The position numbers and the translations under genes were made by a program. A DNA stretch of 38,886 nt from an uncultured Bradyrhizobium sp. (lineage in GTDB: Bacteria > Pseudomonadota > Alphaproteobacteria > Rhizobiales > Xanthobacteraceae): contig NZ_CANSMR010000045.1 of assembly GCF_947648125.1 (NCBI RefSeq), positions 1-38,886 of the forward strand, written 5' to 3'. Within the stretch, counting starts at the first letter, position 1, and the number at the start of each line of letters is the position of its first letter. Shown in pieces: positions 32,212-36,753 of this stretch. The notes beneath the pieces are model-generated. The model saw nothing but the letters and a program-made list of their open reading frames with translations. It searched no databases and had not been told where the DNA came from.

Positions 32212-32268
32212 TTTGAGCACGATCTCCGCGCAAACGCTCCAGCGTTTGCAGCGAGGGATCAGCCTCTA
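32212..32268. repeat. Decayed copy of the GAGCATGATC element
   Basis: TTGAGCACGATCTCCGCGCAAACG followed by CCAGCGTTTGCAGCGAGGG resembles, in reverse orientation, the first hairpin region at 30061-30121, with several mismatches. It ends at the TAG stop of the small HTH gene, as intact copies do for other genes. Confidence 0.6.
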
Positions 32269-32652
32269 GCCGGTCTCCGGCGGCGTGGTCTGGCGCTTGA
32301 CGATCTGCTCGGCGAGCTCGATCAGGATCCGCTTGGTGTCGGGGTCCTTGACGTCGCGGAACACCCGCAGCATGCGCAGCTCGAGCAGGGATTGCAGCGA
32401 TTCCGACGACTGGCCGCCCTGTGTCTGCGCGGTGGTGGCGGGCCGGCGATTGAGCATGTCGGCGGCGATCCCGAGCATCTCGGCAACGGTCGCCAGGCGG
32501 CCGGTCTCGATTTTGACGGTGCCGTCCACGCCGTTCTTGTGCAGGGAGGCGCCAGCGCAGAGGATCTCGGCGAGATCTGCCTGCGACAGCCCGATTTCGC
32601 GCCAGCGCGCCTGCACCAGTTGATCGATCTGGTCGTCCTGCGATGTGCTCAT
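32266..32652 (-). CDS. Small helix-turn-helix (XRE-like) protein
   Basis: 128 residues with an N-terminal region reading LVQARWREIGLSQADLAEILCAGASLHKNGVDGTVKIETGRLATVAEMLGIAADML, which fits a Cro/CI-type HTH. A Gln/Ser-rich linker and a C-terminal helix (LRVFRDVKDPDTKRILIELAEQIVKRQ) follow. It may be a transcription factor, but the insertion around AGASLHKNGVDG between helices is unusual for XRE domains. Codes leftward from the 420-base gap beside luxR. No close partner gene. Confidence 0.7.
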   Translation of the reverse strand: MSTSQDDQIDQLVQARWREIGLSQADLAEILCAGASLHKNGVDGTVKIETGRLATVAEMLGIAADMLNRRPATTAQTQGGQSSESLQSLLELRMLRVFRDVKDPDTKRILIELAEQIVKRQTTPPETG

Positions 32653-33072: not shown

Positions 33073-33846
33073 TCACAGGTCGATGATCCCGAGCGCGATG
33101 CTCTTCGCCACCCCGTGCGTCTTGTTGGAGGCCTCGAGCTTGCGCAGCGCCTGCTTGATGAAGCCTTCAACCGTCTCCGGCGAAATACCGAGGATCTGCG
33201 CGGTGTCGGCCACGGTCTTGCCGCGCGCCGCCCAGGCGATCACTTCCTTCTCCCGACCCGTGAGCTTGATGGTCTCGGCGGCGTCGGCGGGCTTCAGGAT
33301 GGTCGGCGCGTTGCGCTGGTCGCGGTTGACGATGTCCATCGCCCGTTGCACCCAGTAGATCATCAACAGATGCAGTTCATGGCGATGGCAGATGAACAGC
33401 TTGTCGAAGTCGCGCCGTTCGTCTTCCCAGAAGAACACCGTCGAGCTCGAATGCACGGCGCCGAGCCGGTCGCGATAGTGGAACGGCACCACGAAGCCGT
33501 CCTCGAAGCCGAACTCCCGGGCGGCATCCATCGTCTTGACCTCGGGCGCCCGCTTGTGTCCGCTTCGCTCCGGCAGCTTCAGGCTGCTCCAGCTGAATGG
33601 CGTGTTGGTGCGTCGCGATCGCGCCAACGCTGGATCGGCATGGACGAACTCGTTCTGCACATACGCCCGCTTCCAGGCGTCGGGATAGGTGCCGACATGG
33701 TAGGGCAGATCAAGGTCGGGCCGGCCGGCATCGACAAAGGCGAAGCCCGAGAAGCCATAGTTTTGGACAATACGGTGCAATGACGAGCTGAGCTCGTCGA
33801 TGGTATCCGACGCCTCGATGGTCGAAATCGCGTCTACCAGGCCCAT
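33073..33846 (-). CDS. LuxR-type quorum-sensing regulator
   Basis: 257 residues with an N-terminal autoinducer-binding domain and a C-terminal LuxR HTH. Conserved ligand-pocket residues are present: Trp and Tyr in DAWKRAYV, Asp-Pro in VHADPALARS, Trp in TPFSW and the Gly in FEDGFVVPF. The HTH is LTGREKEVIAWAARGKTVADTAQILGISPETVEGFIKQALRKLEASNKTHGVAKSIALG. It is divergent from luxI with 79 bases between starts, so the two form a cognate pair. The ATG at 33846 has GGGGG as ribosome-binding site, and this lies inside the lux-box-like palindrome, which suggests self-regulation. Signal identity unknown. Confidence 0.93.
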   Translation of the reverse strand: MGLVDAISTIEASDTIDELSSSLHRIVQNYGFSGFAFVDAGRPDLDLPYHVGTYPDAWKRAYVQNEFVHADPALARSRRTNTPFSWSSLKLPERSGHKRAPEVKTMDAAREFGFEDGFVVPFHYRDRLGAVHSSSTVFFWEDERRDFDKLFICHRHELHLLMIYWVQRAMDIVNRDQRNAPTILKPADAAETIKLTGREKEVIAWAARGKTVADTAQILGISPETVEGFIKQALRKLEASNKTHGVAKSIALGIIDL

Positions 33847-33854
33847 TGACTAAA

Positions 33855-33873
33855 ACCCCCGGTTTCCGGGGGT
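33855..33873. promoter_or_regulatory. lux-box-like palindrome between luxR and luxI
   Basis: ACCCCCGG (33855-33862), TTT, CCGGGGGT (33866-33873): a perfect 8-bp inverted repeat of 19 bp, the size of a lux box. It is 52 bases upstream of the luxI ATG and 8 bases upstream of the luxR ATG. On the minus strand its GGGGG half is the only ribosome-binding site for luxR. As RNA the luxR leader could fold into this hairpin and hide that site. Confidence 0.7.
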
Positions 33874-33925
33874 ACCACAGTTAACCCCTTTCGTTCCAGA
33901 TGTTCCGCATTTGGAGGAAAGGATA

Positions 33926-34582
33926 ATGCCGCATTCATTGGACGGATATCATGCACTCATCACTCGCGAAGAGCTTGATCCGACGCATGTCGGGGCGATG
34001 TTGCGGCTGCGCAAGCGCCTGTTCGTCGACCATTGCGGCTGGCTTCTGAGCACGACCGGCGACGTCGAACGCGATCAGTTCGACTGCTGGTACACCGAGC
34101 ACTGCCTGTTGTTCTCAGGCGTCGAGCTGGTTGGCGGCTTCCGTGCGATCCGCACCGACTATCCCTATCTGACCAAGTCGGTGTTCCCGCAGCTTGCGGT
34201 GCGCCGCTTTCCGAGCCGCCGTGACGCCTGGGAAATCAGCCGTTTCGGCGTGCTGCCGTGCGGCGCGAGGTCGCGGACGGCACGCGTGAACTACGCGCTG
34301 ATGTTCCGCTTCGCCGAGCTGCGCGGGGCGGCGGCGCTCGTGGCGCTCGCCGACCTTTCCTACGAACGTTTTCTCACCCGCATGGAGATCCGCACCCGCC
34401 GCTACGGCCCGCCGCAGGTGATCGGAAATGATCGCATGGGCCGCCCGCTGACGGCGCTCGCCGGAGAAATCCCGCTGGGTCTCGCCGACAATCCCGGCCT
34501 GACCAAATTCCTCGACCTTGGACGGCAATTGGAGATTCACGATGCCACACATGTTCTCGGACGTTCGAGCATTCCAGCGTGA
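33926..34582 (+). CDS. LuxI-type N-acyl-homoserine lactone synthase
   Basis: 218 residues. All family-invariant positions are seen with the right spacing: Arg29, Phe33, Trp39 (LRLRKRLFVDHCGW), Asp50 and Asp53 (ERDQFD), Arg73 (GGFRAI), Glu103 and Arg106 (WEISRF). It joins S-adenosylmethionine to an acyl (or aryl) group from ACP or CoA to make a homoserine lactone signal. The C-terminal half does not look like the RpaI/BjaI CoA-dependent group as I recall it, so the acyl group is open. The ATG at 33926 has GGAGG at 33913-33917. The 3' end overlaps the P450 gene by 41 bases. Confidence 0.93.
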   Translation: MPHSLDGYHALITREELDPTHVGAMLRLRKRLFVDHCGWLLSTTGDVERDQFDCWYTEHCLLFSGVELVGGFRAIRTDYPYLTKSVFPQLAVRRFPSRRDAWEISRFGVLPCGARSRTARVNYALMFRFAELRGAAALVALADLSYERFLTRMEIRTRRYGPPQVIGNDRMGRPLTALAGEIPLGLADNPGLTKFLDLGRQLEIHDATHVLGRSSIPA

Positions 34583-35906
34583 CCCGCTGCGTCTGTTGCT
34601 GACGCGCGGCAACGAGGCCGAGTTGGGGCTCGTGCCCCTGCGGCTCGGTCCTGCGCCTGTGTTTCTGGTGAACGATCCCGATCTGCTGCGCCCGATCCTC
34701 AAGGCGCCGGAGACCGACATCGGAAAGGGCAAACTGATCAAGAAGCTGACGCCGGTGCTCGGCCGCAGCTCGCTGATGCTGAGCGGCGAGGAGCACAAGC
34801 GGCGGCGGACGGTGCTGCAGAAGCACATGGCCAAGGGCAGCGTCGAGAAATTCCTGCCGCATATGTGCGCCGAGATCCGTGCGGTCGGCGCCAGCCTGGC
34901 GCGGCTCGGATCGTTCGATCCGCACCATGTCACCGCGATGCTGGCGTTGCGGACCATCTGCGTCGCGATCTTCGGCTCACAGGTGATGTCGTCGGGCGAC
35001 GAGGAAGCGCTGGTTCAGGCCGTCGGCGTGATCGAGGACGATCTGGCCGAGGAGATGTTCCGCGCGTTGCCGTTCGGTCCGGTGGCTTGGTACCGGCGCC
35101 GGCAGAACCGGGTCTGCGCCAAGCTTGCCATGTCGACGGTGGTGCAACGCCTGCGCCGCAAGGCGGGCTCGAGCAGCGCGCTGCGGGATCTCGAGGCGCT
35201 CGGCCTGAGCGATCGCGATCTCGAGGACGAGATCCTGACACTGCTGCTGGCCGGCCACCACACCACGGGTTCGACGGCAGCGTGGATGTTCTACCAGATG
35301 GCCGCCGATCCCGCCCTGATGGACGACATTGCCGACGAGGCAGCAGAGTGCATCGGCGACGACGGCGAGCTGCGGCTTGACGCGGTGAAGCACGCCAATC
35401 TGAGTACGACGTTTGTCAAGGAGGTTTGCCGGCTCTATCCCAGCGCCTGGTGGTTCTCGCGCGAGGTGATGCAGCCGGTGACGATCGGCGGGCGCGACCT
35501 CAAGGTCGGCACCTCGCTATTGATCTGTCCCTGGCAATTGCAGCGCGATCCCAGGCAATTCCCCGATCCCGACCGCTTCCTGATGACGCGGCGCTACAAC
35601 ACCGACGCCTACATTCCGTTCGGTGCCGGCCCGCGCGCCTGCGTCGGGATGGGGGTTGCGATGCTCGAGTTGCAATTGCTCGCGCTCGAGATCGCAGCCG
35701 CCTATCGCTTCACCGCCGTCAGCCCGAATCCGGCGCCCTGGCCGAAAGCCTCGGTGACGCTGATTCCGCCGCCGATGACGATCGACATCGAAGTCCGCGA
35801 GATGCCATCGCGCATCCTTCATCTCGGCGAGGAAGCCGAGCGGCTGCCCTACATTCCATCCGCCAGCGCGGCGTCCATCAGCACATTACAATCGGTATCC
35901 CAATGA
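34542..35906 (+). CDS. Cytochrome P450 co-transcribed with luxI
   Basis: 454 residues, a bacterial P450 of usual length. Seen: the I-helix oxygen-binding motif AGHHTT (237-242), the K-helix ExxR at Glu294-Arg297 (KEVCRLYP), and the haem loop FGAGPRACVG with the axial Cys at about 367. Inserts an oxygen atom into an organic substrate using an external reductase. No ferredoxin or reductase gene is adjacent. The ATG at 34542 has GGAGA at 34531-34535 and lies inside the luxI frame, so translation is probably coupled. A likely substrate is the acyl precursor or the homoserine lactone itself, which is inference from gene order. CYP102-like fusion is excluded by length. Confidence 0.93.
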   Translation: MPHMFSDVRAFQRDPLRLLLTRGNEAELGLVPLRLGPAPVFLVNDPDLLRPILKAPETDIGKGKLIKKLTPVLGRSSLMLSGEEHKRRRTVLQKHMAKGSVEKFLPHMCAEIRAVGASLARLGSFDPHHVTAMLALRTICVAIFGSQVMSSGDEEALVQAVGVIEDDLAEEMFRALPFGPVAWYRRRQNRVCAKLAMSTVVQRLRRKAGSSSALRDLEALGLSDRDLEDEILTLLLAGHHTTGSTAAWMFYQMAADPALMDDIADEAAECIGDDGELRLDAVKHANLSTTFVKEVCRLYPSAWWFSREVMQPVTIGGRDLKVGTSLLICPWQLQRDPRQFPDPDRFLMTRRYNTDAYIPFGAGPRACVGMGVAMLELQLLALEIAAAYRFTAVSPNPAPWPKASVTLIPPPMTIDIEVREMPSRILHLGEEAERLPYIPSASAASISTLQSVSQ

Positions 35907-36163
35907 CAACACACATCACGACGGCCAGCATCGGGCAAAGGGCCATGGATCAAGTGCAAATGCGCAGCTTGCGCGACGTCATCGCGGTGTTGATCGAGCA
36001 ACGCAGCATCGTGACGGCGGCCGGCGCGACCTTCGCCGCACATCTGCTCGACCTCGCGATCATGCAGCTCAGGCTCAACGTCAACGATATTTCGGCGGAG
36101 GAATTGTCCGGCCTGTCCGACTACGTTGGCGCGGAGTTCACCAGGGACAAGTCATCGCACTAA
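35903..36163 (+). CDS. 86-residue unknown protein at end of luxI-P450 operon
   Basis: Starts at an ATG overlapping the P450 stop (ATGA, 35903-35906) with no ribosome-binding site of its own, so it depends on coupled translation. Sequence features: QVQMRSLRDVIAVLIEQRSIVTAAGATFAAHLLDLAIMQLRLNVNDISAEELSGLSDYVGAEF, mostly helical and soluble, with no Cys or metal motif. I recognise no family. Its fixed position suggests a role in the same pathway, for example as a partner or regulator of the P450 or synthase. Confidence 0.7.
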   Translation: MTTHITTASIGQRAMDQVQMRSLRDVIAVLIEQRSIVTAAGATFAAHLLDLAIMQLRLNVNDISAEELSGLSDYVGAEFTRDKSSH

Positions 36164-36174
36164 TCGCGCAGAGT

Positions 36175-36274
36175 GTTTTCGTGCGAAGCGGGCACCGGTT
36201 CGCGTGAAGAAAACGCATCAACACAACAAACTAGAGCTTCGGTTCTGATTCTATCAGAACCGAAGCTGCTCTAG
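36175..36274. repeat. Composite palindromic element (GTTTTCGTGCGAAG / CTAGAGC type)
   Basis: First hairpin GTTTTC (36175-36180) with GAAAAC (36209-36214) and an inner CACCGGTTCGCG block. Second hairpin AGCTTCGGTTCTGAT (36235-36249) with its exact complement at 36253-36267, framed by CTAGAG/CTCTAG. Probably ends the luxI-P450 transcript and supplies the TAG stop of ybaK on the other strand. Confidence 0.85.
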
Positions 36275-36753
36275 TCCTGCGTCGCCACCAGCGCCTTCAT
36301 CGTGGCGCCGGCGGCGAGCGCGGCGTCGTTCGGATCGATCTCGATCTGCAGGCCGCGCTGGCCGCCATTGACGAACACGGTGACATGGGTGAGCGCGGTC
36401 TCGTCGATCGCGGTCGGCACCTTCTTTTTCTGGCCGAACGGGCTGATGCCGCCGACATGGTAGCCGGTCAGCCGCTCGGCATCGGCCGGGCGCATCATCC
36501 TGGCCGACTTGCCGCCGAGGGCTGCGGCGAGCTTCTTCATGCTGACCTCGCAGTCGGACGGCACCACGGCGCAGACCGGCTTGCCGTCGACCTCCGCCAT
36601 CAGCGTCTTGAGCATGCGGTTCGGGTCGACGCCGAGCGCCTCCGCCGCCTGCAGCCCGATGCTCTCGGCGCTGGAATCGTAGACATAGGTGTGGAGCTTG
36701 AAGGCAATGCCTAGCTTGCGCAGCGCCATCGTCGCTTGTGTCGAATTGGGCAT
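36271..36753 (-). CDS. ybaK: Cys-tRNA(Pro) deacylase YbaK/EbsC family
   Basis: 160 residues of the YbaK fold: MPNSTQATMALRKLGIAFKLHTYVYD, GLQAAEALGVDPNRMLKTLMAEVDGKPVCAVVPSDCEVSMKKLAAALGGKSARMMRPADAERLTGYHVGGISPFGQKKKVPTAIDETAL. The Lys in LKTLM and the GGISPFG loop are family hallmarks. Removes Cys wrongly attached to tRNA-Pro, aiding translation fidelity. The ATG at 36753 gives the usual length, and an upstream in-frame ATG at 36807 would add 18 residues that do not look conserved. The TAG stop is inside the palindromic element. Confidence 0.92.
   Translation of the reverse strand: MPNSTQATMALRKLGIAFKLHTYVYDSSAESIGLQAAEALGVDPNRMLKTLMAEVDGKPVCAVVPSDCEVSMKKLAAALGGKSARMMRPADAERLTGYHVGGISPFGQKKKVPTAIDETALTHVTVFVNGGQRGLQIEIDPNDAALAAGATMKALVATQD

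Follow-up and report, generated by a model that had tools for sequence, protein, structure and literature searches.

An uncultured Bradyrhizobium sp. carries the gene of a LuxI-type acyl-homoserine lactone (AHL) synthase in an overlap with the gene of a cytochrome P450 (P450), and the question raised by this locus is whether the two enzymes work on one and the same quorum-sensing signal. The locus lies in a stretch of 38,886 nucleotides (contig NZ_CANSMR010000045.1), referred to below as the window. The source genome of 8.57 Mb is Bradyrhizobium-like, with close relatives that bear the name Bradyrhizobium, and luxR, luxI, the P450 gene and a gene of 86 residues are all intact in it. The first-pass annotation had described a divergent luxR followed by luxI, the P450 gene and the small gene, joined by overlaps of 41 bp and ATGA and with intact motifs, and all of these coordinates were confirmed. 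We propose, with a probability of roughly 60%, that the locus encodes a quorum circuit whose dedicated P450 acts as an oxidase on the signal's acyl chain or on that of the acyl carrier protein-bound (acyl-ACP) precursor; the chemistry is what we infer from the genes and their distribution. The genes and the probable ribosome-binding site within the overlap are as follows.

33073 to 33846, minus strand: luxR, 257 residues (ATG at 33846, stop at 33073)
33926 to 34582, plus strand: luxI, LuxI-type AHL synthase, 218 residues, with basic residues R148, R152 and R159, predicted acyl-ACP type
34531 to 34534, plus strand: GGAG within luxI codons, likely Shine-Dalgarno sequence of the P450 gene
34542 to 35906, plus strand: cytochrome P450 gene, 454 residues, its first 41 bp inside luxI
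35903 to 36163, plus strand: small gene of no known family, 86 residues, in ATGA overlap with the P450 stop

Matches to Pfam agree with these names: Autoind_bind (3.2e-24) and GerE (2.5e-12) for LuxR, Autoind_synth (PF00765, 5e-13, 49.4 bits against a cut-off of 24) for LuxI, and PF00067 (1.7e-53) for the P450, which has the I-helix motif AGHHTT, the ExxR motif as EVCR and the heme cysteine in FGAGPRACVG.

Linkage of luxI and the P450 gene

Genome searches, in which only part of the first-pass candidates of each genome was scored, detected LuxI (E<=1e-20) in 28 of 242 genomes of the same genus and the P450 (E<=1e-70) in exactly those 28, and all 28 loci have a divergent luxR and a P450 gene that overlaps the end of luxI. 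The LuxR orthologue (E<=1e-40) was found in 12 of 89 genus genomes drawn, identical to the 12 that carry LuxI and P450; outside this draw, genome G191 has the LuxR without LuxI and P450. At the level of the order, LuxI (E<=1e-15) occurs in 11 of 397 genomes and the P450 (E<=1e-45) in the same 11 and in genome G372, where the match ends 4 bases short of the contig end. Order-level loci and loci on named contigs make up a set of 35, some of them fetched twice, in which LuxI has at least 41% identity; the P450 gene stands at the 3' end of luxI in all 35 and a divergent LuxR is present in 34, the remaining locus (L056) reaching a contig end. A scan of contigs of named species gave 48 LuxI loci, with the cassette in all 25 that have at least 42% identity; these span Bradyrhizobium, Methyloligella, Aureimonas, a Xanthobacteraceae bin and others, and since the scan used strict patterns they do not amount to a census. 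Among the other 23 LuxI loci (28-38% identity), the flanks fetched (up to 5 kb, judged by two P450 queries) contain a P450 only in two loci where it is fused to the synthase. At class level, LuxI (E<=1e-15) was found in four genomes besides the source genome, among 385, and in three of these loci (L120, L121 and L123) a P450 of 27-39% identity lies directly downstream of luxI. The P450 reading frame of L120 ends at 333 residues, before the heme motif and 38 bases from the contig end, and is therefore cut or frameshifted.

A plasmid collection yielded 2 records with the P450 (E<=1e-30). The first is a conjugative plasmid of 573 kb from a Bradyrhizobium japonicum strain of soybean, which carries a complete luxR-luxI-P450 set in a diverged form (L124, NZ_CP066352.1 253236-266519). 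The other is a Methylosinus plasmid (L125, NZ_AP022334.1 123948-136880) with a partial P450 that matches only residues 22-332 and adjoins an IS66 element; no luxI is annotated in this 12.9-kb stretch, and the P450 is probably what is left of a decayed cassette. On a Bradyrhizobium viridifuturi contig (L064:5531-6891, and L009) the alignment of the P450 breaks near residue 403 and continues in another frame, which is a frameshift or a sequencing error.

The form of the linkage is nearly as constant as its occurrence. When the position aligned to residue 1 of the query P450 is taken as the gene start, 35 of 46 distinct loci have an overlap of 41 bp, 10 have 62 bp and one has 140 bp, and the 41-bp overlap persists down to about 40% identity; of the 18 distinct loci outside the core clade 17 have it, and L056 has CTG instead of ATG as its aligned start codon. 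The tally reduces 64 loci to the 46 distinct ones; L110, L122 and L125 have no LuxI-P450 pair, and L111-L119, which had been fetched a second time, and L120, L121 and L123 of the class level are left out of it, the last three having overlaps of 1, 80 and 4 bp when the longest reading frames are taken. None of the 23 loci that have the P450 gene in common with a plasmid or genome hit was excluded on account of its outcome. The printed loci mostly show the stop of luxI straddling P450 codons 13 and 14 (CGT GAC and similar), and 13 of the 15 have a GGAG in luxI codons that is able to serve the P450 gene, which together may explain why the overlap is so constant. The first of these two P450 codons is altered in L069 and L076, where the luxI stop comes 21 bases further on. 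An alternative P450 start in the window, TTG at 34518, would extend the overlap to 65 bp; ATG 34542 is preferred because it is conserved and preceded by GGAG.

In one lineage the two enzymes form a single protein. A P450::LuxI fusion of 686 residues, with a P450 domain at 30-457 and an AHL-synthase domain at 481-628, is open on two metagenome-bin contigs (L101:3549-5609 and L103:2614-4674) that share 87.7% DNA identity over 9.2 kb, with luxR divergent upstream; the order of the two parts is reversed relative to the operon, the P450 coming first. The ratio of nonsynonymous to synonymous substitution (dN/dS) is 0.045 for the fused frame, and the linker (residues 456-485) has 10 synonymous changes and no amino-acid change. 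In-frame ATG and GTG codons at 459 and 477 make an additional internal start possible. One contig is labelled Anaerolineae and the other Alphaproteobacteria, and one of these labels may be a binning error.

The annotation's idea that the P450 is functionally locked to the AHL synthase is strongly supported by the same 28 of 242 genomes, by 11 of 11 testable genomes of the order, by the near-constant overlap and by the fusion. The idea would have been refuted, by the annotation's own criterion, if most relatives had the P450 without luxI; it was not refuted, the only such cases in the samples searched being the P450 cut by the contig end in G372 and the partial Methylosinus copy. Co-occurrence and fusion led us to reject the P450 as a stray neighbour, and since the gene order recurs in the genus and beyond and purifying selection acts on the small gene, the arrangement is not due to chance.

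Synthase type and evolutionary history

In an alignment of 8 sequences, R29, F33, W39, D50, D53, R73, E103 and R106 of LuxI are invariant, and we take these eight to be the textbook catalytic set. The best solved relatives are 3p2f (presumably TofI) and LasI (1ro5), followed by the 5w8 series (which we take to be BjaI) and the 4-coumaroyl-homoserine lactone synthase 6wn0. Residues K150 and R154 of LasI align with R148 and R152, neither of which varies among the 8 sequences. According to the available part of a published study, LasI 146-173 is the ACP-binding loop and the clade of acyl-CoA-type synthases is without conserved exposed basic residues there (PMC4234381). An acyl-ACP donor is therefore predicted for the synthase of the window from the conserved basic residues in this loop.

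In a LuxI tree of 58 rows, built with a quick method and excluding L100 as too short, 32 of the 34 P450-linked rows group together with a support of 86, and the inner core of this group, 29 rows, has a support value of 99*. The LuxI paralogues of the source genome (L001, L002 and L004) lie outside this group, and one of them, L002, is RpaI/BjaI-like. The comparison with BjaI, BraI, RpaI and MrtI that the first-pass annotation had suggested was not borne out as an affinity: the synthase falls outside the group of the RpaI/BjaI-like paralogue of its own genome, the four named proteins themselves not being in the tree. On its tree position and the conserved basic residues of the ACP loop, we reject its assignment to the BjaI/RpaI synthases of the acyl-CoA type.

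In the P450 tree, which omits five near-duplicates and L120 and includes 11 of 12 paralogues of the source genome (L140 was not extracted), the 24 core rows form one clade (100*) apart from the 11 paralogues, and all 28 luxI-linked rows lie on one side of a branch with support 73. In the I-helix (residues 237-242) a histidine replaces the Asp/Glu before the threonine. This GHHT pattern, with His for the acid of the acid-alcohol pair, is present in all order-level loci where the motif was found (it was not found in L055 and L060), and Glu takes the place of the His in the fusions and the relatives at class level, as GHET or GFET.

A proposed circuit and its rivals

The circuit that we propose would work as follows. 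LuxI would join a medium- or long-chain acyl group from acyl-ACP with S-adenosylmethionine into an AHL, and the P450, its translation coupled to that of luxI on a shared mRNA, would oxidise the acyl chain, most likely by hydroxylation away from the carboxyl end, with either the acyl-ACP precursor or the finished lactone as its substrate. The oxidised lactone would bind LuxR and so activate the luxI-P450-small gene operon through a palindrome between luxR and luxI, and the 86-residue protein would be an accessory whose synthesis is coupled to theirs and which more probably serves the enzymes than LuxR. More broadly, we would give a little better than even odds to an old and widespread class of circuits in Alphaproteobacteria, in which the AHL is oxidised by a P450 translationally locked to the synthase (and in one lineage fused with it), the small protein is an accessory, and the signal, hydroxylated in the middle or at the end of the chain or oxidised further, is read only by the cognate LuxR.

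Residues Y62, D71, W86 and G117 of LuxR are invariant in 21 aligned sequences (fusions not included), and W58 is mostly, not always, kept; by TraR/LasR numbering we take the first four to belong to the homoserine-lactone pocket and W58 to be the equivalent of TraR W57. With its Autoind_bind and GerE domains and these pocket residues, whose roles are those of TraR/LasR work, the protein has the features of an AHL receptor, and the conservation of the pocket makes its ligand consistent with a retained homoserine-lactone amide. An open LuxR orthologue (81%) also occurs at L034:2731-3537, where a dN/dS of 0.19 relative to the window indicates purifying selection; it is possibly an eavesdropping receptor.

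The putative regulatory signals around the operon are these.

33855 to 33873, strand not assigned: candidate lux box in the luxR-luxI intergenic region, a perfect 19-bp palindrome, ACCCCCGGTTTCCGGGGGT
33896 to 33914, plus strand: possible hairpin CCAGATG-N5-CATTTGG that abuts the luxI Shine-Dalgarno sequence, conserved, tentative
36230 to 36274, strand not assigned: strong inverted repeat 3' of the small gene, probable terminator, overlapping the stop of a convergent YbaK-like gene

The palindrome is kept with small changes across the Bradyrhizobium core clade (28 other loci inspected), and similar dyads of 20 bp occur in Methyloligella and its kin (L079/L051 and L052), L081 and L060. At up to 2 mismatches the window copy is the sole one in its own genome, and a reversed-pattern control likewise gave 1 match per strand; a regulon defined by the palindrome was discarded, the window copy being the only one, with an equal control count and no list of targets. 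No match to a sigma-70-type promoter was found within 33700-36400. The hairpin before the luxI ribosome-binding site is conserved in 11 sequences and is regarded as tentative because only 1 of its 13 predicted pairs shows a two-sided change. The inverted repeat has a z-score of -6.3, and the terminator scan, which found 2 terminator-like sites against 1.3 expected, places the repeat on the minus strand only.

Several observations weigh against the proposed circuit or limit its reach. The palindrome is not evident in 8 loci (L053, L054, L058, L080 and L082-L085), so that any autoregulation through it may be limited to part of the family. The LuxR orthologue of L034 occurs without LuxI or P450, and the class-level LuxI of L122 has no P450 alongside. 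In the LuxI tree the two fusions lie beyond the branch that sets off the P450-linked group, with no finer placement, and in the P450 tree they join the luxI-linked P450s with a support of only 73. Distances of LuxI and P450 correlate at 0.95 (33 rows reduced to 25 representatives, L056 excluded as it has no LuxR; none of 2000 permutations reaches this value), falling to 0.79 when the four most distant representatives are removed, and physical linkage by itself would yield much of this correlation.

Other roles of the P450 also have to be weighed. It could inactivate AHLs by oxidation, as a negative feedback within its own operon. The chemistry is within the reach of a P450, as CYP102A1 oxidises AHLs at omega-1 to omega-3 (PMC3355433, a review, as far as its accessible text goes), and a signal-degrading enzyme within a quorum-sensing locus exists in the form of the MupX amidase and its RXI arrangement (PMC3386692, likewise), and co-transcription of the P450 gene with luxI would suit feedback. 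However, a fixed overlap and a fusion with the synthase would consume the signal as it is made, which is an odd design for a quencher, and among the 242 genomes no LuxI orthologue is without the P450 at the thresholds used; we consider inactivation unlikely. We are equally doubtful that the P450 turns a host metabolite into a separate product under quorum control, in which case the operon would be a minimal biosynthetic unit regulated by quorum sensing. Quorum sensing often controls secondary metabolism, and the best NCBIfam scores of this P450 are to terpene-oxidising models, though 137 bits against a cut-off of 700 and 113 against 800 fall far short. Further enzymes for such a product do not stand out: among 904 open reading frames of at least 90 residues in 19 loci of different lineages, a threshold that makes the count silent on the small gene, the widely shared families are LuxI/P450, LuxR and reading frames antisense to them, and no other neighbour family is common to more than 4 of the 19 loci. 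In addition, the only P450s without luxI in the samples searched are the one that reaches a contig end and the partial copy by an insertion sequence, and one lineage has the P450 fused to LuxI.

Far less probable is genetic hitch-hiking, by which an old operon would be held together by its overlap without any common pathway. Overlapping genes are hard to separate, and a luxI stop that usually lies within P450 codons 13-14 fits this explanation; yet at class level the overlaps differ (1, 80 and 4 bp) while the genes remain adjacent, and the fusion has the two enzymes in the opposite order.

Dedicated oxidation of the signal, which we prefer, has partial precedents. Among the matches listed from the open-licence literature, judged by titles and the starts of abstracts and with subscription journals mostly uncovered, there is no report of a luxI-P450 operon or fusion. 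By analogy, the closest precedent is the R1-I1-crotonase circuit of Mesorhizobium japonicum, where, according to the part of the report available, a luxI-linked crotonase gene 8 bp downstream is needed for normal signal production, and where luxR, luxI and a co-directed enzyme gene recur in further genera of Alphaproteobacteria (PMC10470506). In the window, too, the third gene is co-directed with luxI, and it is conserved alongside it across genera, which is one mark of a three-component R-I-enzyme circuit. The two differ in that the third gene of Mesorhizobium belongs to the crotonase superfamily and is separated by 8 bp whereas here it is an overlapping P450 gene, and in that the Mesorhizobium LuxI clusters with the acyl-CoA type (PMC10470506) whereas the LuxI here has acyl-ACP-type residues. 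We class the luxI-P450 system as a variant of the three-component AHL circuit and not as a member of the crotonase type.

Other systems share single features with the locus, as far as the accessible parts of the respective reports describe them. In the novR-novI-phyH loci of Novosphingobium an oxygenase gene (phytanoyl-CoA dioxygenase) adjoins luxI in 4 of 5 cases, but this is an iron(II)-dependent enzyme unrelated to P450, and its regulation by quorum sensing is the hypothesis of the authors (PMC3704786). The Rhodobacteraceae strain MOLA 401 produces AHLs with polyhydroxylated acyl chains, for which a P450 was proposed as the maker, but the text available goes no further than noting a P450 in the genome and states no linkage to luxI (PMC5479921). 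CYP102A1 hydroxylates acyl chains of AHLs near their end, but it is a Bacillus enzyme, discussed as modifying signals outside any AHL circuit (PMC3355433). BjaI and RpaI are LuxI-family synthases, and the source genome has one such paralogue (L002), but they differ in tree position (that of L002), and their acyl-CoA-type clade is without the conserved basic residues of the ACP loop that are kept here (PMC4234381). If the proposed circuit is correct, P450 chemistry would join the dedicated routes by which homoserine-lactone signals are diversified, which would suggest how private signals arise among rhizobia and their kin in crowded soil communities, and the locus would supply a ready enzyme pair, available also as a natural fusion, with which oxidised AHLs could be made and sensed. 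It would also give a genome-based handle on the polyhydroxylated AHLs whose proposed maker is a P450 (PMC5479921).

The small protein and neighbouring genes

The dN/dS of the small gene is 0.035-0.284 in 7 of 7 loci compared, which indicates that it is a real gene. The suggestion that it might always be third held in part: it occupies that place in 25 of the 28 genus loci and is absent from it in 3, where a diverged homologue (20-31% identity) lies about 160-230 bp past the P450 gene. On the Bradyrhizobium japonicum plasmid a diverged homologue follows the P450 gene beyond an IS1380-like element. Profile searches of the 86-residue protein against Pfam, NCBIfam and PDB gave nothing significant or convincing, and its search of the plasmid collection gave no match. 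Small reading frames after the P450 gene outside Bradyrhizobium have a similar size and an apparent helical pattern, and with a best profile E of 0.52 we do not claim them as homologues.

Another 22 genomes, none of them with this LuxI, encode relatives of the small protein (46-61% identity), as does a second site in genome G041, and 12 of these 23 stretches were fetched for inspection. In 8 of the 12 (L033-L036, L040 and L042-L044) they are accompanied by LysR-like, GNAT-like (400 residues), isochorismatase-like and MFS-like genes; no isochorismatase was called in L041, and L037-L039 have only parts of the cassette. The domain names come from Pfam for L034 only and for the rest from a look at the sequences and an alignment of 7 GNAT sequences. 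The alternative cassette sits between EamA/XRE and YbaK/PurA genes, the site that is taken by the quorum genes in the window. One Bradyrhizobium site thus holds either of two alternative modules, each with an acyltransferase-fold enzyme and a small protein. A LuxI-like synthase function was rejected for the GNAT protein, which has just a weak match to FeeM (E 0.029). Because its relatives belong to a LysR/GNAT/isochorismatase/MFS cassette at the same site, the small protein is more likely an accessory of enzymes than of LuxR, and as that cassette is mostly without LuxR, a role as a LuxR anti-activator appears less likely.

On its other side luxR adjoins the gene of an XRE-like protein of 128 residues (32266-32652, minus strand), which has no match in Pfam and is conserved at this position whether or not the quorum genes are present. 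Small XRE-type regulators, classed by a look at their sequences, lie near the cassette in 4 of the 19 lineages (L081:7147-7590, L083:6480-6893, L101:5483-6265 and L119), and a similar one adjoins the LuxI of L122.

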